This document shows positions 3,204 through 20,492 of a stretch of 23,347 nt of DNA, in pieces (within the stretch, counting starts at the first letter, position 1; each line of letters opens with the position of its first letter). The position numbers were made by a program, and so were the translations under genes. The stretch comes from a virus. The DNA lies in the IMG/VR virus record IMGVR_UViG_3300033571_010102, positions 1-23,347 of that record, one strand, 5' to 3'. The notes beneath the pieces were generated by a model that was given only the letters and a program-made list of their open reading frames with translations, ran no database searches and was not told where the DNA came from.

Positions 3204-3308
3204 GGGACAGTAGCTCAGGTAGATTAGCCGTCTATTAGCTGGTCTGAGTAGAGCGGGAGTGTTGGCTAACACTTCGCGTCGTTGGTTCAATTCCAACCTG
3301 TTCCACCA
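3204..3308 (+). tRNA. tRNA-Ala (probable GGC) with expanded D loop and anticodon arm
   Basis: Acceptor GGGACAG/CTGTTCC has the G3-U70 wobble that defines alanine tRNAs, A73 and an encoded CCA. The T-arm (GTTGG-TTCAATT-CCAAC) and D stem (GCTC/GAGC) are canonical, but the D loop is about 34 nt. The anticodon arm is 20 nt, best drawn as GGAGTG/CACTTC with an 8-nt loop TTGGCTAA. The anticodon is GGC if U33 is the second T. It could be a functional odd tRNA-Ala, one with quadruplet potential, or one needing processing. Confidence 0.7.
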
Positions 3309-3715: not shown

Positions 3716-3799
3716 GGGAGTGCCGCCTCAAGGTGAGGCAGCGGACTGTAACTCCGTCGAGGAAACTCATGTTGGGTTCGATTCCCTTCACTCCCACCA
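3716..3799 (+). tRNA. tRNA-Tyr (GTA)
   Basis: Class II tRNA: acceptor GGGAGTG/CACTCCC, anticodon loop CTGTAAC (GTA) on stem GCGGA/TCCGT, long variable arm (CGAGGAAACTCATG), T-loop TTCGATT, encoded CCA. Confidence 0.93.
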
Positions 3800-3900: not shown

Positions 3901-4107
3901 ATGCCTAAATCACCTGTTTATGGTAGAGGTCGCAACCGCAATCATCGTCCTCCAAAGAGTCCTATTCACGCCTCTGCAGCAAACATTAATATGCGCGGTA
4001 AAAAAAGTAAATCCGATCACTGCTGGTGCTGTGTATGCATTGACATGCGTGAAAAAATAACTCATAGCATACACACAAAGGAAATGAAAAATGAAACAAG
4101 ATCGTAA
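3901..4107 (+). CDS. small basic protein with C-terminal Cys cluster, 68 aa
   Basis: ATG 3901 is preferred to ATG 3895 because AAGGAA (3889-3894) is the right distance from it. The N-terminal part is strongly basic and proline-rich (MPKSPVYGRGRNRNHRPPKSP), followed by DHCWCCVCIDMRE with four clustered cysteines that could bind zinc. A nucleic-acid-binding role is plausible but unproven. The end overlaps the start of the HAD gene by 17 bases. Confidence 0.55.
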   Translation: MPKSPVYGRGRNRNHRPPKSPIHASAANINMRGKKSKSDHCWCCVCIDMREKITHSIHTKEMKNETRS

Positions 4108-4651
4108 ATATCCGATGTCTTTAGACGTTGAACAAGATCGTAAATATCTGGTGTTTTTAGACATTGACGGAGTTTTTACTAGCTCGCGTGTTCACCTTGC
4201 TCACAATGCTGTTTACAATATGTGGCAGAGATTTGATCCTGTTGCAGTAGACTTCATGAATAAGATCCATGATCGTTATCCCGTTGAATTCGTGCTAATT
4301 TCAACTTGGAAAAATGATCTACGCAACGACGATAATACTGTTGAACACTGGATTCGTGCAGCTTTTGCTAACTCCGGCTTTCGCGGTGACTTTGCGAGGA
4401 TGTGGAAAACTGATCCAGACAATCTGTGGGCTGCTAGGGCAAAACCTTATGATCGTTCTCACGAAATACGTGAGTATCTTGAAACCTATGGCCAAGACAT
4501 TGTAGACTATATAATCTTTGATGATAACGACTACGGTTTTGAGCAGGTTCTAGGTAAAAAGCGCTGGGTTCGTACTGACCCTCAAAACGGGTTGCTATTC
4601 AAACATATGCTAAATGCCCAATCAATAATGGGGATGTGGAATAAAAAATAA
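4091..4651 (+). CDS. HAD-superfamily protein resembling Swiss-army-knife RNA-repair HAD domains
   Basis: HAD motif I is FLDIDGVF (Asp24 and Asp26), motif II is LISTWKND, and motif IV is IIFDDNDYGF. The RSHEIREYL segment and the RTDPQNGLLF end fit the HAD_SAK type of small phosphatase domain known from RNA-repair proteins and large phages. The expected activity is metal-dependent hydrolysis of a phosphate monoester, possibly at an RNA end. The N-terminus shows a tandem repeat (QDRKY...LDVE / QDRKY...LDID) from a 36-bp duplication. It lies between tRNA-Glu and tRNA-Arg; an RNA-repair role is inferred from domain type and context. Confidence 0.7.
   Translation: MKQDRKYPMSLDVEQDRKYLVFLDIDGVFTSSRVHLAHNAVYNMWQRFDPVAVDFMNKIHDRYPVEFVLISTWKNDLRNDDNTVEHWIRAAFANSGFRGDFARMWKTDPDNLWAARAKPYDRSHEIREYLETYGQDIVDYIIFDDNDYGFEQVLGKKRWVRTDPQNGLLFKHMLNAQSIMGMWNKK
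4095..4166 (+). repeat. 36-bp tandem duplication at the HAD gene start
   Basis: Copy 1 (4095-4130) and copy 2 (4131-4166) share AACAAGATCGTAAATAT and TTTAGAC blocks with a few substitutions, mostly transitions. The second copy encodes the catalytic FLDIDG strand; the first encodes a non-catalytic imitation (MSLDVE). Confidence 0.85.
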
Positions 4652-5471: not shown

Positions 5472-5544
5472 AGGATCGCTTCAGCATACTTAGCTATGAA
5501 AGCACTTCACTTGTAATGAAACCAAAGCCGAAAGGCACGATCCT
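5472..5544 (+). ncRNA. RNA-A: candidate Y-RNA-like small RNA (73 nt)
   Basis: A perfect 7-bp closing stem AGGATCG/CGATCCT (5472-5478/5538-5544) is followed at once by CTTCAGCA, the motif shared with RNA-B and RNA-D. Inside are CATA...TATG and TTCA-CTTGTAA-TGAA arms and a GCC-GAAA-GGC tetraloop hairpin. The size and 7-bp stem resemble tRNA, with a TGT anticodon-like loop, but a T-arm is lacking. Position: just upstream of RNA-B and the TROVE gene. I infer a Ro-associated RNA; a degenerate tRNA-Thr is the alternative. Confidence 0.5.
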
Positions 5545-5564
5545 GAATAAACTATTGAAACCAT

Positions 5565-5653
5565 AGGTTGGTTTCAGCAACTAAAAACCGGGAATGGTTC
5601 CCAATTTGTCTATTAAACAAACTTAACGGTTCGAATCCGTGAAATACCAACCT
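5565..5653 (+). ncRNA. RNA-B: candidate Y RNA with tRNA-like module (89 nt)
   Basis: Closing stem AGGTTGG/CCAACCT (5565-5571/5647-5653), then TTTCAGCA, with TTTCA able to pair with TGAAA across a two-base bulge. Three hairpins inside imitate a tRNA cloverleaf: GGGAA-TGG-TTCCC, TTTGT-CTATTAA-ACAAA (a perfect 7-nt anticodon-type loop) and ACGG-TTCGAAT-CCGT (a T-arm). The T-arm does not abut the closing stem, so it is not a standard tRNA. Bacterial Y RNAs of the YrlA class pair both ends and carry such a module. It ends 13 bases before the TROVE start. Confidence 0.6.
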
Positions 5654-5666
5654 GAAAGGAAATATT

Positions 5667-7094
5667 ATGTCGTTTGTTAACGCAGTTAAAAATCAAAAGA
5701 ATAATGCTCCTGCTCGTACCGCTAATGGTATGAAGGCACGTGCCACTTCTGCATCACCTGTTCTTGATTTGTTCGGTATCATCGGTTCTGCACGCGGCAC
5801 TGATATTACCAAGCAATTTGTAGCAGCTTTTGTAGAAAACAAAGAGCTTACTCTTCGTATGCTTCTTTGGGCTCGTGATATTCGCGGTGGTGCTGGTGAA
5901 CGTGCTACCTTCCGTAATCTGCTCTCCGCGCTAGAGACTACCGACCCAACTCTAGCGGGTAAGCTTATGTCCAAGGTTCCTGAATTGGGACGTTGGGACG
6001 ACTTGTTCACCTACCGTGATCCGATCAACCGCAATAAAGCATTTGCATTCATTCGTGAAGCTCTTGCTAATAGCGATGGTCTTGCTGCAAAGTGGATGCC
6101 GCGTAAAGGTCCGATTGCTGTTGAATTGACTCGGTTCCTGGAACTGAGCCCTAAGCAGTATCGTAAGCTCATCGTTGGTCTGACTAATGTTGTTGAAAGC
6201 AAGATGTGTGCTAAGGAATGGGAAGCAATCAACTTCTCGCATGTTCCTTCAGTAGCTTCTGCTCGCTATCAAAAGGCTTTTGGTCGTAATGCAAAAGACG
6301 CATACTCTGCGTATATTGCAGAACTAAAGAAGCCGGTTGAACAGCGTGACCCTAAAGTCAAGATCAACGCGGGAGCAGTTTACCCTTACGATATCATTAA
6401 GTCGGTTGTAAAGGGTAATGCAGCTGTTGCAGATGAACAGTGGAAGGCTCTGCCTAACTACATCGGTGACGCTCGCATTCTGCCAATGGTTGACGTATCT
6501 GGTTCCATGGGTAGCCTCGGTTACTCTCATGGTTCACAACTGTCGCCTATTGACGTTGCAGTTTCGCTCGGTCTTTACTGTGCAGACAAGAACACTGGAG
6601 CTTTCAAGGATCTGTTTCTGACCTTCTCTAGTAGGCCGAAGATGGAACACCTTAAAGGTACTCTGTCTCATAAGATGGCTCAGATGAGCCGTGCTAATTG
6701 GGAAATGACCACTAACCTACATGCAGCGTTTGATGAGATTCTCAAAATCGCTGTGAACGGTAAAGTTTCTCAAGAGGACATGCCTCAGATGTTGCTTATC
6801 CTCTCGGACATGCAGTTTGACCAGTGCACTCGCTACGACGACTCTGCTATGCAGATGATTGCTCGTAAGTACGAAGCTGCTGGATACGCTGTGCCTAAGA
6901 TTGTGTTCTGGAACCTGTCAATGTACGGCAAAGAGAACGGTAACAGCCCCGTCAAGTTTGACGAACGCGGTACTGCTCATATCTCTGGCTTCTCGCCTGC
7001 GATCATGAAAAGCGTTCTTGCAAACGACCTTGAGGACTTTACTCCATACAATGTTATGGTAAAGACTCTTATGAACGATCGCTACGCCTACTAA
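5667..7094 (+). CDS. rsr: TROVE-domain Ro60/Rsr-like RNA-binding protein
   Basis: This 475-residue protein has the TROVE/Ro layout: helical-repeat region from about residue 20 to 265 (DLFGIIGSARGTDITKQF..., LLWARDIRGGAGERATFRNLL), then a von Willebrand A domain with a MIDAS motif DVSGS (276-280), threonines at 348-349 (MTTNLHAAF) and a later LSDMQFD. In characterised Ro proteins the helical ring binds misfolded RNA ends and Y RNAs, and bacterial Rsr works with exoribonucleases in RNA quality control. The start follows GAAAGGAAATATT. Candidate Y RNAs lie immediately on both sides. The gene is richer in GC and in optimal codons than its neighbours, suggesting strong expression. Confidence 0.9.
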   Translation: MSFVNAVKNQKNNAPARTANGMKARATSASPVLDLFGIIGSARGTDITKQFVAAFVENKELTLRMLLWARDIRGGAGERATFRNLLSALETTDPTLAGKLMSKVPELGRWDDLFTYRDPINRNKAFAFIREALANSDGLAAKWMPRKGPIAVELTRFLELSPKQYRKLIVGLTNVVESKMCAKEWEAINFSHVPSVASARYQKAFGRNAKDAYSAYIAELKKPVEQRDPKVKINAGAVYPYDIIKSVVKGNAAVADEQWKALPNYIGDARILPMVDVSGSMGSLGYSHGSQLSPIDVAVSLGLYCADKNTGAFKDLFLTFSSRPKMEHLKGTLSHKMAQMSRANWEMTTNLHAAFDEILKIAVNGKVSQEDMPQMLLILSDMQFDQCTRYDDSAMQMIARKYEAAGYAVPKIVFWNLSMYGKENGNSPVKFDERGTAHISGFSPAIMKSVLANDLEDFTPYNVMVKTLMNDRYAY

Positions 7095-7101
7095 GGCGTA
7101 G
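7082..7101 (+). other. inverted repeat around the TROVE stop codon
   Basis: CTACGCC (7082-7088) and GGCGTAG (7095-7101) form a perfect 7-bp stem with the TAA stop in its loop (TACTAA). No T-run follows, so it is not an intrinsic terminator. It may protect the mRNA 3' end or insulate the gene from RNA-C. Confidence 0.5.
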
Positions 7102-7111
7102 CTACTAAAAT

Positions 7112-7205
7112 AGGTTAGTTGCAGCAACAAATTTATAGCAGGTTCGATTCCTGTCTATCCAACCATAATCTGGACAGACGCCCATGGCGGGCAAAATGCT
7201 AACCT
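7112..7205 (+). ncRNA. RNA-C: candidate Y RNA downstream of TROVE (94 nt)
   Basis: Closing stem AGGTTAG/CTAACCT (7112-7118/7199-7205), then TTGCAGCA, a one-base variant of the RNA-A/B/D motif. Inside are a T-arm mimic GCAGG-TTCGATT-CCTGT and a hairpin GCCC-ATGGC-GGGC. The 3' side reads GCAAAATG next to the stem, like ACAAAAA in RNA-D. An overlapping tRNA-like end (CTATCCAACCA) exists, but no full tRNA can be drawn upstream of it. It begins 18 bases after the TROVE stop. Confidence 0.5.
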
Positions 7206-7228
7206 GAGTAAAAATTTTTAAAAAACTA

Positions 7229-7257
7229 TTGACTGCTTGTAAAAAATGAGTTATAAA
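7229..7257 (+). promoter_or_regulatory. promoter TTGACT-17-TATAAA
   Basis: TTGACT (7229-7234), 17-bp spacer, TATAAA (7252-7257). It would start transcription near 7264, just before a structured leader and the HNH gene. Confidence 0.6.
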
Positions 7258-7267
7258 TATTAAGTAA

Positions 7268-7316
7268 AGGCGAAAAGGGTAGCTCCCCTGACTTGTGCTC
7301 GCTCACAGTCTAGCCT
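7268..7316 (+). ncRNA. structured leader ahead of the HNH gene
   Basis: AGGC (7268-7271) can pair with GCCT (7313-7316), enclosing GGG-TAGCT-CCC and a hairpin with GACT/AGTC and GTG/CAC pairs around CTCGCT (7290-7310). It sits at the 5' end of the transcript from the promoter at 7229. It may be another small RNA or a 5'-UTR control element; no known riboswitch consensus is seen. Confidence 0.35.
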
Positions 7317-7335
7317 ATATTTAGCGAGAAATAAT

Positions 7336-7896
7336 ATGAAAGATATAGATCTAGAACCCGTAGCAGTATGGAGAAAAAATTTAAAGCAAAGAGCAGTTAA
7401 TCTATTTGAAGGTAAATGCTGTGTATGTGGTTACAATAGATGTTTAGCTGCTTTAGAATTTCATCATTTAGACCCTTCTAAAAAAGATTTTTCTATATCC
7501 CAGGCATATGCTAATCCCAAAAAATGGGAATACATAGTAGCAGAATTAGAGAAATGTGTTTTAGTATGTTCTAATTGCCATAGGGAAATACATCAAGGAA
7601 TTCTAGAATTAGAAAATAAAACCTATATACTAACTGAAAAAGACTATAGAATAGTAGAAAAAACACATCATCACTGTACATGTGGTTCTGTAATTAGATT
7701 ATCTGCTAAATACTGCTCTCCAGAGTGTTCTTCTAAAGGAGCTATGACTAAAGATTGGTACGCAGAAAAAGATAATATTATAACTATGCGTGATGACAAA
7801 AAACTATCATATGTTGCAATAGGATTACACTACAAAGTATCCGATCATACAGTTAGAAAATGGTATTTAAAATTTAAAAATAGCATTCCCAGTTAG
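7336..7896 (+). CDS. HNH endonuclease with C-terminal zinc ribbon and HTH, inserted in the tRNA array
   Basis: In this 186-residue protein, CCVCGYN...LEFHHLDPSKKDF...CVLVCSNCHREIH (about residues 29-94) is an HNH module with two zinc-binding Cys pairs and a FHHLD catalytic centre. A second Cys cluster (CTCGSVIRLSAKYCSPEC) and a helix-turn-helix-like tail (LSYVAIGLHYKVSDHTVRKWYLKFK) would read the target. The gene is markedly AT-rich beside the tRNAs. Its last four codons run into tRNA-Asn, overlapping the acceptor strand, as expected for an element that arrived beside a tRNA. Likely a free-standing homing endonuclease. Confidence 0.82.
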   Translation: MKDIDLEPVAVWRKNLKQRAVNLFEGKCCVCGYNRCLAALEFHHLDPSKKDFSISQAYANPKKWEYIVAELEKCVLVCSNCHREIHQGILELENKTYILTEKDYRIVEKTHHHCTCGSVIRLSAKYCSPECSSKGAMTKDWYAEKDNIITMRDDKKLSYVAIGLHYKVSDHTVRKWYLKFKNSIPS

Positions 7897-7964
7897 CACT
7901 CTAGGCGAGCGCGTTCGGCTGTTAACCGAAAATAAGGTTGGTTCGAATCCAACACTGGGAGCCA
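7887..7964 (+). tRNA. tRNA-Asn (GTT)
   Basis: Acceptor TCCCAGT/ACTGGGA, anticodon arm TTCGG-CTGTTAA-CCGAA, T-arm GTTGG-TTCGAAT-CCAAC, G73, encoded CCA. The first ten bases overlap the HNH coding end. Confidence 0.95.
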
Positions 7965-7972
7965 AATATCAT

Positions 7973-8048
7973 TGCGGGGTAGAGAAGAGGCATCTTGCTT
8001 GGCTCATAACCAAGAGATCGGAGGTTCGAGTCCTCCCCACCGCAACCA
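7973..8048 (+). tRNA. initiator-like tRNA-Met (CAT)
   Basis: TGCGGGGTAGAG at the 5' end, GGCTCATAACC at the anticodon and CCGCAACCA at the 3' end closely follow bacterial tRNA-fMet. The first position is T opposite A72, a weak pair where E. coli has C1/A72. The anticodon stem CTTGG/CCAAG has two of the three G-C pairs typical of initiators. T-arm GGAGG-TTCGAGT-CCTCC, with one extra C before the acceptor strand. It could act in initiation, or be an elongator or Ile2 tRNA. Confidence 0.8.
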
Positions 8049-8049
8049 A

Positions 8050-8211
8050 AATTGATCGGTAACGCGAGGTGGTACTTACTTATTGATCGAAACCGCAGAC
8101 CCGCTAGTCGGGGTAGAATAGTGGAAGATATAGTCGGCTTCCACATTATAGCCAACGTCCTAGACACTGCGAAACCTGCGGCTTTGTAGCAGTTATAGAT
8201 AGCTAGGAGAC
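8050..8211 (+). ncRNA. structured RNA spacer between tRNA-fMet-like and tRNA-Ser
   Basis: Hairpins CCCG-CTAGT-CGGG (8100-8112), GTGGAAG/CTTCCAC (8121-8127/8138-8144) and a long nested hairpin TCCTAG/CTAGGA (8158-8163/8203-8208) enclosing ACTGC/GCAGT. ATTGATCG occurs twice (8051, 8082) as a direct repeat. I find no single closing stem here. No coding frame with a ribosome-binding site. Confidence 0.35.
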
Positions 8212-8243
8212 CTGCCATGAGGGAGTAGATTGGCAATTATAGA

Positions 8244-8331
8244 GGAAAGTTGGGCGAGCGGTTTATGCCTACAGTCTTGAAAACTGTCGAACCGCAAGGT
8301 TCCGTGAGTTCGAATCTCACACTTTCCGCCA
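8244..8331 (+). tRNA. tRNA-Ser (TGA)
   Basis: Class II tRNA: acceptor GGAAAGT/ACTTTCC, anticodon arm ACAGT-CTTGAAA-ACTGT, variable arm GAACC-GCAA-GGTTC, T-arm GTGAG-TTCGAAT-CTCAC, G73, encoded CCA. Confidence 0.96.
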
Positions 8332-8337
8332 TGTTTA

Positions 8338-8402
8338 AGGATCGGTTCAGCAAAACTTTACGCTAAATCATTTGGATTGTCTTAGCGGACAAAAACGATC
8401 CT
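8338..8402 (+). ncRNA. RNA-D: RNA-A-like small RNA (65 nt)
   Basis: Its closing stem AGGATCG/CGATCCT (8338-8344/8396-8402) is identical to that of RNA-A, followed by GTTCAGCA and, on the 3' side, ACAAAAA. The body is one long hairpin (CGCTAA/TTAGCG with inner ATC/GAT) and has no tRNA features. The shared stem and motif with a different body argue that the closing end is the functional, conserved part, as in Ro-binding stems of Y RNAs. Confidence 0.5.
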
Positions 8403-8412
8403 GTTATTATTT

Positions 8413-8485
8413 GGGGCGGGTAATGGGTTACGGGTGATCCTTGCAAGATCGCTGTCGTTGGGTTCGATTCCCAGTCGCTCCACCA
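8413..8485 (+). tRNA. tRNA-Ala (TGC)
   Basis: Acceptor GGGGCGG/TCGCTCC with the G3-U70 alanine determinant, anticodon arm TGATC-CTTGCAA-GATCG, T-arm TTGGG-TTCGATT-CCCAG, A73, encoded CCA. Confidence 0.93.
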
Positions 8486-10995: not shown

Positions 10996-11958
10996 ATGAT
11001 AAAAACTTTAACTATTGCTGGTATATTAGCTATATCTACTTCTAGCGTTTATGCTAGAGATCAAATTCAAGTAACTGGATCTTCAACTGTTCTGCCATAT
11101 GCAACTATTGTAGCAGAAGCATTTGGTGAAAACTTTGATTTTCCATCGCCTGTTGTAGAAGGTGGTGGGTCTGGTGCTGGCCGTAAAAAACTATGCGAAG
11201 GAGTTGGCGAAAACACTGTTGACATTGCAAACTCTTCTTCAAAAATGAAAGACGAAGAATGGGCCAAGTGTGAAGCTGCTATTGGCGCCATCACTGAAGT
11301 TCGCTTTGGTTATGATGGAATTGTATTCGCTTCAAATATTGATGCTTTAAATCTTGATAATGTAACAGTAGCTCAACTATATACTGCGCTACACGCAGAC
11401 AGCACTGCGCGTCTATGGAGTGATGTAGACTCTACACTACCAGCTACCGAAATTCTAGCTTACATTCCAGGTACTAAACATGGAACACGTGAAGTGTTTG
11501 ATGTAAAGGTCATGGAAGCTGGCTGTAAAGAAGTACTAGGAGTTGAAAAACTAGACGACGATCAGAAAAAGGCATGTGTGAAGGTACGTACTGACGGTGC
11601 AGCCGTTGACATCGATGGCGACTATACAGAAACACTTGCTCGTCTCGATGCAAACAAGACATCACTCGGCGTATTTGGTCTAAGCTTCTATCAGAACAAT
11701 ACTGATAAACTAGAAGTGTCTACAGTAAGCGGTGTTACGCCTAGCGTAGAAACAATCTCAAGTGGTGACTACCCTATCAGCCGTCCACTCTACTTCTACG
11801 TTAAGAATGCGCATCTTGACGTAATTCCTGGATTAAAAGAGTATGTGGCATTCTTTTTAAGTGATGATATGTCAGGTCCAGACGGTGCATTAGTACAATA
11901 CGGTCTTGTTCCAGATCCTGAGCTAGCTACTACACAAGCTGCAATCGCTTCTTGGTAA
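10996..11958 (+). CDS. pstS: phosphate-binding periplasmic protein PstS
   Basis: This 320-residue protein has a signal peptide (MIKTLTIAGILAISTSSVYA, cleavage likely after residue 20). The PstS phosphate-binding signatures follow: TGSSTVLPY at 27-35, GGGSGAG at 56-62, and IANSSSKMKDEE. The later ISRPLYFYVKN segment is typical of the family. It would bind phosphate in the host periplasm and deliver it to the host PstCAB transporter, supporting phage DNA synthesis. ATG 10996 follows AGGAGAAACTC. The length fits phage and marine bacterial PstS. The dedicated Pho-box promoter and terminator make it a self-contained gene cassette. Confidence 0.93.
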   Translation: MIKTLTIAGILAISTSSVYARDQIQVTGSSTVLPYATIVAEAFGENFDFPSPVVEGGGSGAGRKKLCEGVGENTVDIANSSSKMKDEEWAKCEAAIGAITEVRFGYDGIVFASNIDALNLDNVTVAQLYTALHADSTARLWSDVDSTLPATEILAYIPGTKHGTREVFDVKVMEAGCKEVLGVEKLDDDQKKACVKVRTDGAAVDIDGDYTETLARLDANKTSLGVFGLSFYQNNTDKLEVSTVSGVTPSVETISSGDYPISRPLYFYVKNAHLDVIPGLKEYVAFFLSDDMSGPDGALVQYGLVPDPELATTQAAIASW

Positions 11959-12186: not shown

Positions 12187-12549
12187 GTGATTAAAGCATT
12201 TAGAGCAAAACAAGTTGAGTCTATCATTGAACGATATGATTCAAACACCTATGGTATTTATATTGGTTATCAAGCTATTGGTGACTGTATAGGTCCAACG
12301 AAGATTGGGCGTACTATCAATTTGAAAGCAATCGAGCGCGGACGCGCTCAAGGCGGAGCAGACTGGTGGTTTCACTCTTTCTGGCTACTCGACAGTCGTG
12401 CAGAAACTTATAGCGTAGAGTCTCGCATTAAAGCAAGCCTAAAGCAGTACAAAATTAAAGGCACGCAGTCACAAACAGAATTATACTCACTATCTTTAGC
12501 AGAAGCCGAAACGCTAGTTTCACAACTGCTAGGGCCTTCTGCAATTTAA
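12187..12549 (+). CDS. T5orf172 / GIY-YIG-superfamily protein
   Basis: The start is GTG 12187, one base after the previous stop. In this 120-residue protein, YGIYIGYQAIGDCIGPTKIGRTINLKAIERGRAQGG contains the KIGRT motif and strand layout of T5orf172 (Mug113-like) domains, a GIY-YIG nuclease relative. A later SRAETYSVESRIKASLKQYK segment offers the conserved Glu. A DNA endonuclease or mobile-element role is likely, though many family members are uncharacterised. It lies directly upstream of the tmRNA locus. Confidence 0.7.
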   Translation: MIKAFRAKQVESIIERYDSNTYGIYIGYQAIGDCIGPTKIGRTINLKAIERGRAQGGADWWFHSFWLLDSRAETYSVESRIKASLKQYKIKGTQSQTELYSLSLAEAETLVSQLLGPSAI

Positions 12550-12570
12550 TAAGCTCTGATTACGTAAATT

Positions 12571-12613
12571 AGACGCAGGTAAGACTCGGGGGCGGTACCC
12601 GACGACTCCACCA
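12571..12613 (+). ncRNA. ssrA: permuted tmRNA, acceptor piece
   Basis: In order: CAGGTAA (12576-12582), the 3' strand of helix P2; the T-arm TCGGG-GGCGGTA-CCCGA (12586-12602); the acceptor 3' strand CGACTCC (12603-12609); A73 and encoded CCA (12611-12613). CGACTCC pairs with GGGGTCG at the start of the coding piece, with the G3-U70 pair needed for alanine charging. The 5' boundary is approximate; the upstream trailer may include 12550-12570. Confidence 0.88.
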
Positions 12614-12712
12614 AAGATACTCCGCCACTTAATACATAAATGCGGAGTATTTCCGGAACACTTTCCGCGGGTCAGTCAGTGGTTCGAAACACTGCCGTGG
12701 AGTATCTTTGAT
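12614..12712 (+). other. tmRNA intervening segment with competing hairpins
   Basis: This is the segment removed when a permuted pre-tmRNA matures into two pieces. Its ends pair perfectly (AAAGATACTCC 12613-12623 with GGAGTATCTTT 12699-12709). The same 5' strand can instead pair with GCGGAGTAT at 12642-12650. A T-loop-like hairpin CAGTG-GTTCGAAA-CACTG (12676-12693) also lies inside. At 99 nt it is long for such a segment. Confidence 0.75.
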
Positions 12713-12882
12713 GGGGTCGAAATAGGATCGATTACTTGAAGACGAAGAAACCAGGAGCCAGTGCGCAAGCGACTGTAACCGCAAGAAAATTAACAATTGC
12801 AAACGATAACTTTGCTCCTAAGGAATTTGCACTAGCTGCATAATCCTGTGGGTATGGGCTCCACCTAGAAACAGAACGGGCC
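12713..12882 (+). ncRNA. ssrA: permuted tmRNA, coding piece with tag ANDNFAPKEFALAA
   Basis: It starts with the acceptor 5' strand GGGGTCG (12713-12719) and the AAATAGGATCG D-like region. TTACTTG (12732-12738) pairs with CAGGTAA of the acceptor piece as P2. The tag frame begins at resume codon GCA 12799 and ends at TAA 12841-12843, giving 14 residues of the alphaproteobacterial ANDN...AA type. GGAGCC (12754-12759) can pair with GGCTCC (12857-12862) around the tag. tmRNA with SmpB rescues stalled ribosomes and tags nascent chains for proteolysis. The 3' boundary is estimated. Confidence 0.9.
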
Positions 12883-12906
12883 TACTGTTGTAAAAATGTA
12901 ACAGTA
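12883..12906 (+). other. hairpin at the tmRNA 3' border
   Basis: TACTGTT (12883-12889) and AACAGTA (12900-12906) form a 7-bp stem with an A-rich loop. No T-run follows, so it is more likely a processing or stability element than a terminator. Confidence 0.45.
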
Positions 12907-19364: not shown

Positions 19365-19549
19365 TGGCTTTTTATACTTTAATCGGACTTCTTGCAGTAG
19401 CAGCTGTCCTAGCTGCTGGTGTGTATTGGGTTATTGCAAACATCAGCTTCAAACGTCAACCTGAGCGCTACACCTATATGAAGGATGAAGCTGGTAACGA
19501 ATACGTACAAGATAACTCGAAAGGTGAACAAAGTGATCCAAAAGCCTGA
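19364..19549 (+). CDS. 61-aa single-span membrane protein
   Basis: ATG 19364 shares a base with the previous TAA. MAFYTLIGLLAVAAVLAAGVYWVIANISF is one membrane helix, followed by a polar tail (KRQPERYTYMKDEAGNEYVQDNSKGEQSDPKA). It is coupled to the SPFH gene, overlapping it by 17 bases, so the two may function together at the membrane. Confidence 0.6.
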   Translation: MAFYTLIGLLAVAAVLAAGVYWVIANISFKRQPERYTYMKDEAGNEYVQDNSKGEQSDPKA

Positions 19550-20492
19550 ACGCTACGATTATAACTCTCGTGGAGAGTATGAAGCTGCTCTTAAACAATA
19601 TGAAATCAATGTAAGGAAATTTAAAATGAATGCTGTTATTGGCGGTACTATTGCTACTCTTGTCGGTATCGTTGCTCTTACTGTTATCGGCGGTAGCTGG
19701 TATACTGTTAATGAGGGTTATCGTGGGGTTCAACTGCGTAACGGAGCTGTGATTGGAACATCAGAGCCGGGTCTTGGCTTTAAACTGCCAATTATTGAAT
19801 CTGTTGTTGATATTAGCGTTCAATCGCAAGCTCAGCTGTATGAGAACATTCTTGCGTATAGCCGTGACCAACAAACTGCTGGCTTGAACCTGTCTGTTAA
19901 CTATCGCTTCCCTGCAGACCAAGTTGAGACGATCTATCGTGAGTATGGCGGTGAAGCTGGTGTTATCTCGCGTCTGCTCGATCGTCAGGTACTTGAAGAA
20001 GTGAAGAACGTGTTTGGTAAGTTCAACGCTTCCACTGCTATTCAGGAACGCGAACGACTCGCAGCTGAAACTCAGATGGCTATTCAAAAGGCTGTAGTTG
20101 GGCCGATCATTGTTGAGTCTGTACAAATCGAGAACATTGACTTTAGCGATGCCTATGAAAACTCAATCGAAGCTCGTATGCTTGCCGAAGTTGAAGTGCA
20201 GAAGGTTCGTCAAAACGCAGAACGTGAAAAGGTTACTGCTGAGATTACTGTGATTCAAGCTCAGGCAGAAGCTGATGCACAACTTGCTCGTGCTACTGCA
20301 GAAGCCGAAGCTACTCGTATTCGTGGGGACGCAGAAGCTGCTGCTATCAAAGCAAAGAGCGAAGCGCTTAAAGACAATGCTGGGCTCATCGCACTGACTC
20401 AAGCTGAGCGTTGGAATGGCGCACTGCCTACTACTATGATTCCCGGTTCGACCGTTCCGTTTATGGATGTAGCAACTAAGCCTGCACAATAA
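19533..20492 (+). CDS. SPFH-domain (prohibitin/HflK-like) membrane protein
   Basis: The likely start is GTG 19533 after AAAGGTGAAC; ATG 19626 is an alternative. With about 319 residues, it has a membrane helix near residues 35-54 (IGGTIATLVGIVALTVIGG). The SPFH region follows (YTVNEGYRGVQLRNGAVIGTSEPGLGFKLPIIESVVDISVQSQ... through NIDFSDAYENSIEARM), then a long Ala/Glu/Arg-rich coiled coil. Such proteins form membrane rings; the bacterial homologues HflK/HflC regulate the FtsH protease. Prohibitin-like genes are known in large marine phages, role unsettled. GC-richer and codon-optimised, followed by a terminator. Confidence 0.85.
   Translation: MIQKPERYDYNSRGEYEAALKQYEINVRKFKMNAVIGGTIATLVGIVALTVIGGSWYTVNEGYRGVQLRNGAVIGTSEPGLGFKLPIIESVVDISVQSQAQLYENILAYSRDQQTAGLNLSVNYRFPADQVETIYREYGGEAGVISRLLDRQVLEEVKNVFGKFNASTAIQERERLAAETQMAIQKAVVGPIIVESVQIENIDFSDAYENSIEARMLAEVEVQKVRQNAEREKVTAEITVIQAQAEADAQLARATAEAEATRIRGDAEAAAIKAKSEALKDNAGLIALTQAERWNGALPTTMIPGSTVPFMDVATKPAQ

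Follow-up and report, generated by a model that had tools for sequence, protein, structure and literature searches.

The window analyzed here, the whole 23,347 bases of an IMG/VR virus record (IMGVR_UViG_3300033571_010102), encodes a Ro-like protein and, around its gene, four short RNA elements, RNA-A to RNA-D, which we consider, with good confidence, to be Y-RNA-like partners of the protein encoded among them; counts given for the window come from this single fragment. Ro60 is a human autoantigen. In our analysis we observed a conserved element, its link to the DUF2828 clade of Ro proteins, tRNA mimicry in the element bodies, and a Ro fold in the protein model. Judged by its sequences, the family appears to constitute a bacterial "Y RNA" class that is both new and widespread, with its own recognition signature. 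The features concerned, all on the + strand, are:

5472-5544, + strand: RNA-A, closing stem of 7 base pairs (bp) AGGATCG/CGATCCT, C-TT-CAGCA, then G5545
5565-5653, + strand: RNA-B, closing stem AGGTTGG/CCAACCT, T-TT-CAGCAA, then G5654
5667-7094, + strand: Ro-like protein of 475 amino acids, DUF2828 and DUF7788, phrog_850
7112-7205, + strand: RNA-C, closing stem AGGTTAG/CTAACCT, TTG-CAGCAA, then G7206
8338-8402, + strand: RNA-D, closing stem AGGATCG/CGATCCT, G-TT-CAGCAA, then G8403

A first-pass annotation had described four RNAs around a TROVE (Ro60/Rsr) gene, and all four were confirmed in the sequence at those coordinates with perfect 7-bp stems. Each stem takes the form AGG-N4/N4-CCT and is followed by a G; RNA-A and RNA-D do share AGGATCG, and the spacing is as described, RNA-B ending 13 nucleotides (nt) upstream of the ATG (5667), with a gap of 17 nt from the stop codon (ending at 7094) to RNA-C. 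The motif claimed to follow the first strand is present as NTTCAGCA in RNA-A, RNA-B and RNA-D and as TTGCAGCA in RNA-C, but the constant core turns out to be NNN-CAGCA(A), not TTCAGCA. Near the Ro-like gene, RNA-A to RNA-D are the only NNNCAGCA elements with Watson-Crick-perfect pairing; other matches in the window depend on G-U pairing, contain a mismatch or fall within coding sequence. Single-sequence folding of the four was weakly better than that of shuffled sequences (z -1.7 to -2.1).

Recurrence beside other Ro-like genes had been suggested as a check, and such recurrence was found. Elements with the same layout (a 7-bp closing stem that varies in sequence, 3 nt and CAGCAA, then a body that also varies, and the returning stem strand with a near-invariant G after it) occur within 2.5 kilobases (kb) in 125 of 154 non-redundant Ro-like loci, comprising 60 of 70 viral, 12 of 16 named-phage and 53 of 68 bacterial or archaeal loci. 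They are found in Listeria P100, Staphylococcus Sextaecvirus, Felixounavirus, Campylobacter, Enterococcus, cyanophage and mycobacteriophage Silverleaf genomes, as well as in Clostridia, Akkermansia, Treponema and one Woesearchaeon. We also took an independent route, in which the DNA pattern alone, with no protein information, was scanned over IMG/VR and returned 120 stretches, 35 of them with a stem. A Ro-like gene was present in 19 of the 35 stem-bearing records versus 0 of the 50 stemless records tested (Fisher p ~1e-9); the stem-bearing matches without a Ro gene were mostly short contigs. Since loci share ancestry, the p-values in this work are nominal.

The shared end was characterized by counting every one of the 1024 pentamers after a 7-bp stem strand plus 3 nt in the 154 non-redundant loci. 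CAGCA ranked first, with 252 sense versus 7 antisense occurrences, and the next unrelated pentamer reached 36. Of the sense-strand CAGCAA sites flanking Ro genes, 203 out of 361 (56%) have an exact stem at the 3-nt spacing; the background rate is 1.9%, and antisense sites gave 1 of 62. The next best spacing accounted for 62 sites, including stems longer than 7 bp read in a shifted register. The signal was also strong in loci outside the motif definition, where 151 of 283 CAGCAA sites possess the stem versus a mean of 0.9 per permuted hexamer. A G directly follows 213 of 218 perfect stems, a position that was never part of the search. Pairing, another point on which the first-pass annotation could be checked, is kept throughout: the 434 unique elements contain 164 different stem sequences that still pair.

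Between the two stem strands, the bodies differ and many resemble parts of tRNA. RNA-A contains an anticodon-arm-like hairpin (TTCA-CTTGTAA-TGAA) and the hairpin GCC-GAAA-GGC, whereas RNA-B carries, in order, GGGAA-TGG-TTCCC, an anticodon-arm mimic (TTTGT-CTATTAA-ACAAA) and the T-arm CGGTTCGAATCCG. RNA-C resembles the permuted tRNA of bacterial YrlA, with a T-arm, a capped acceptor-like stem and the D-arm-like hairpin GCCCATGGCGGGC; the T-arm mimics in RNA-B and RNA-C and the three hairpins of RNA-B had all been noted at the outset. Among the 434 bodies, 105 contain T-loops (0.7 in shuffled sequences) and 83 anticodon-type 7-nt loops of the form CUNNNAA were counted (1.7 in shuffled sequences). 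The latter have U36 in 63 of 83 cases, against a T frequency of 0.27, and variable positions 34-35, giving triplets such as UGU, GUU, UUU, UAU and UCU. A broader YUNNNRW count was discarded because it included T-loops.

RNA-C, Silverleaf, two of our comparison loci (L004 and L034) and others form a subset with the architecture of a circularly permuted tRNA, in which a T-arm is followed by an acceptor stem capped with a short loop and then by a D-arm; this order could be aligned across RNA-C and 12 relatives, while RNA-A, RNA-B and RNA-D carry other bodies. Permuted members scored 33-40 bits against the YrlA model RF02553, which is significant and below its gathering threshold of 69 bits. Only matches coinciding with closed elements were kept, because neighbouring tRNAs in arrays imitate the permuted order. 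A true bacterial YrlA fetched for comparison adjoins classical Ro and RtcB and has the same permuted layout, which strengthens the likeness to bacterial Y RNAs proposed earlier.

RNA-D sits with a tRNA-Ser on one side and a tRNA-Ala-like gene on the other. Its body reads CGCTAA ... GTC-TTAGCG-GAC, with the hairpin loop complementary to the upstream segment. Bodies of this type were also found in loci L003, L009, L014, L016 and L023, with one compensatory change in the L014 hairpin (GTC/GAC to TCC/GGA), and from their sequences may form a pseudoknot.

The Ro-like protein bears the PHROG 850 label "RNA-binding protein", and most DUF2828/DUF7788 proteins carry the annotation hypothetical or "RNA-binding". 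Relatives of it were counted in no fewer than 682 sequenced phage records, Listeria phage P100 among them, and also occur in IMG/VR and in bacterial and archaeal genomes. By sequence, phmmer and a profile search of the PDB gave mere hints of TROVE, so that a fold comparison was needed. The confident AlphaFold model (predicted local distance difference test 84.8, predicted template modelling score 0.84) had significant Foldseek matches solely to the TROVE domain, Xenopus Ro and Deinococcus Rsr. Aligned by VIA with 1yvp, a Ro bound to RNA, it gave a Z of 19.5 and a root-mean-square deviation of 4.0 over 404 residues, covering the ring and the vWA domain. The metal-ion-dependent adhesion site (MIDAS) contains DVSGSM, and D276, S278, S280, T349 and D381 (DxSxS...T...D) are invariant. 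According to this model, the protein is predicted to have a Ro60-like fold and to belong to a distant, separate clade.

Several results weigh against our reading. The earlier designation as a TROVE gene stands at the level of predicted fold and fails in Pfam, where the protein does not match TROVE (PF05731) and DUF2828 and DUF7788 alone match; within the DUF2828/DUF7788 family, a TROVE match was found in one Woesearchaeota genome only, and it was weak. About a quarter of Ro-like loci, e.g. that of Aeromonas phage AsFcp_1, have no strict element, the candidates of KVP40 sit far upstream only, and no alternative 5' motif was found in 29 loci without an element. Orthologous RNA-B copies, when aligned and folded, showed nearly no covariation signal, and RNA-C searched alone against RF02553 reached 14.7 bits, end to end. 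The abundant noncoding RNA region of Listeria phage CKA15 (26,236-26,727) was considered as a site of CAGCAA elements and rejected, there being none within it.

The protein CKA15_055 of that phage was found in purified virions, and abundant RNAs upstream of its gene were suggested to be Y RNAs (PMC12282133). It belongs to the same family as the window protein. We identified three CKA15 elements at 25,217-25,565 on the minus strand of OR088597.1, between CKA15_055 and _056, in a region kept in 54 Listeria phage records; unlike the putative Y RNAs of PMC12282133, these three are undescribed there. The Listeria P100 counterpart of the abundant region (L177:6015-7040) also has no CAGCAA element, and the extremely abundant CKA15 noncoding RNAs are unaccounted for by the elements.

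We propose that the Ro-like protein would recognize the common end, that is, a 7-bp stem irrespective of its sequence, with NNNCAGCAA on its 5' side and the single 3' G, leaving the body exposed. By analogy with known particles, the elements would be transcribed as separate RNAs and bound, with the RNA acting as both gate and tether: it may fill the Ro ring, as for bacterial Rsr/YrlA, while its tRNA-like body could bring in an exoribonuclease (PNPase, for example) or enzymes that act on tRNA, possibly for RNA quality control or repair in infection. The bodies mimic an anticodon arm (RNA-A), an anticodon and a T arm (RNA-B), a permuted YrlA-type domain (RNA-C) and a compact knot-like hairpin (RNA-D). 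The CAGCAA end would thus be the handle for Ro and the bodies interchangeable baits for tRNA-acting proteins, a division of labour like that of YrlA. A HAD_SAK_2 phosphatase gene of the "Swiss army knife" RNA-repair family (4091-4651, + strand), 0.8 kb upstream of RNA-A, is a possible partner of the system; this gene and a jumbo-phage review assigning phage Ro proteins to RNA repair (PMC7824862) fit such a mechanism.

The elements might instead be mainly cis-acting leaders or trailers, through which Ro binds its own mRNA and autoregulates translation or protects the transcript, free RNA being irrelevant. The position of 368 of the 434 elements upstream of the gene agrees with this, as does the 3' end of RNA-B, which reaches the margin of the ribosome-binding site. 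We nevertheless judge it unlikely, given that a locus may have up to five elements, that some copies lie downstream and kilobases away among tRNAs (as does RNA-D), that the 3' G is conserved at a defined end, and that the tRNA-mimic bodies are like those of YrlA, a free RNA. It is very improbable that the elements are tRNAs, whether ordinary or in decay, or hairpins involved in processing a phage tRNA cluster: many do sit among tRNAs, and in some database records their neighbours are annotated as pseudo-tRNAs, but they share a non-tRNA end, some have a permuted order, and they go with the Ro gene, not with tRNA clusters. In line with this, ARAGORN did not call RNA-A to RNA-D as tRNAs in the window, and a permissive whole-window Rfam scan placed no family, including any Y RNA family, on them; neither outcome contradicts the first-pass annotation, which had singled out such calls as a check. 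DNA-level inverted repeats, e.g. recombination or packaging sites, would account for 7-bp repeats around a fixed core. This explanation is hardly credible for elements that are strand-specific relative to the gene (252 versus 7), have bodies conserved as RNA structure, and are found in unrelated phages and chromosomes.

Another possibility, to which we give a small but real chance, is that the RNAs form a panel of tRNA decoys, in which Ro-displayed anticodon arms (mostly U36-A37-A38) and T/D arms absorb host anticodon nucleases and other tRNA-cutting defences, sparing phage tRNAs. The CUNNNAA loops (83 versus 1.7 shuffled), their U36 (63 of 83) and their varying triplets are suggestive in this respect, as are phages with many tRNAs and the nearby RNA-repair phosphatase. 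Nevertheless, no defence gene or nuclease was linked, many bodies have no anticodon arm, the RNAs also occur in bacteria without phage tRNA arrays, and the loop counts are uncorrected for shared ancestry; as directed against anticodon nucleases the idea is attractive, with the loops as its only support. The more general version, a modular RNA counter-defence in which Ro proteins of the DUF2828 clade show interchangeable tRNA parts on a universal stem-CAGCAA handle and so distract or lure host defences that cut tRNA, is doubtful. We retain Y-RNA-like partners of the Ro-like protein as the preferred interpretation.

The surroundings of the Ro-like genes offered further observations. In the window, a permuted two-piece transfer-messenger RNA (12515-12886; RF04321 104 bits, alpha_tmRNA 95 bits) suggests that the host is an alphaproteobacterium and that the phage carries an RNA for trans-translation. 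Infernal found tRNA-like genes missed by ARAGORN at 8413-8485 (Ala-type, TGC anticodon), 3204-3305 and 3716-3795. Two HNH endonuclease genes, probably of the homing type, lie at 7336-7896, between RNA-C and the tRNA cluster, and at 477-974; a phosphate-binding-protein-like gene (PBP_like_2) lies at 10996-11958 and a Band 7/SPFH gene at 19485-20492, and SPFH genes are also near Ro in some other phages (L183, L384). In gut Firmicutes (L267:1460-3623, L235:1521-3669), the chromosomal Ro-like gene comes after two genes related to each other, at least one with a WYL domain. By analogy with RtcR for rsr, it is possible that these WYL-type genes regulate the locus via nucleic-acid signals.

Phage Y RNAs as a concept have already been proposed: Chen et al. 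(2014, as cited in PMC12282133) reportedly described Y RNAs next to Ro in both bacteria and phages. The idea itself is thus not new, and the family extends beyond phages, being present in bacteria and archaea too. In the literature searched, which did not include the primary Y RNA papers, the CAGCAA signature is not described. For the DUF2828/DUF7788 proteins, common in phages and many bacteria, the elements provide candidate RNA partners with a short, testable recognition code, and their many natural variants could serve to probe the function of bacterial Ro-Y RNA particles, a long-standing open question.

Among known systems, YrlA (RF02553, rsr-yrl-rtcBA operon) is similar in having ends paired in a basal stem, in being encoded beside a Ro protein, and in its tandem copies and permuted order of T-arm, capped acceptor stem and D-arm, which a subset of the new members shares. 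It differs in its basal motif, GGCGA-AUGC ... CUUGUCGCC, in place of any 7-bp stem with NNNCAGCAA and a 3' G; moreover, most new members are shorter and without the full tRNA domain, the best tested reaching 40 bits for a cut-off of 69. According to a review (PMC8394870), YrlA attaches to Rsr through its basal stem; PNPase binds the tRNA-like domain, which DusA and TruB modify. Metazoan and Deinococcus Ro60/Rsr-Y RNA particles likewise combine a ring and vWA with MIDAS fold with small RNAs that have paired ends, but belong to other Pfam families (~14% identity) and have another RNA signature.

Phages with a TROVE-type Ro60, for which a structure from Thermus phage phiLo has been solved (9l5y), were also compared. 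None of nine such phages had a credible CAGCAA element near the gene, the two formal hits falling inside coding sequence. The RNAs of Olaya, CcrPW, Gurke, Quantum and TM61 resemble the new family in that often several YrlA-like RNAs directly adjoin Ro, with a permuted tRNA body and, in some, an anticodon-arm mimic; they differ in that the post-stem motif is ~TTACTTC, not NNNCAGCAA, and that Ro is of the PF05731/PF25045 type. In five TROVE-type phage loci (L386, L388, L382, L387 and L383), the TTACTTC-like motif was shared, often with the anticodon-arm mimic TCGACTGTTAATCGA. These sequences suggest that the RNA signature and the Ro clade split together; of all the hints that the protein may bind at the common end, this tracking is the strongest.

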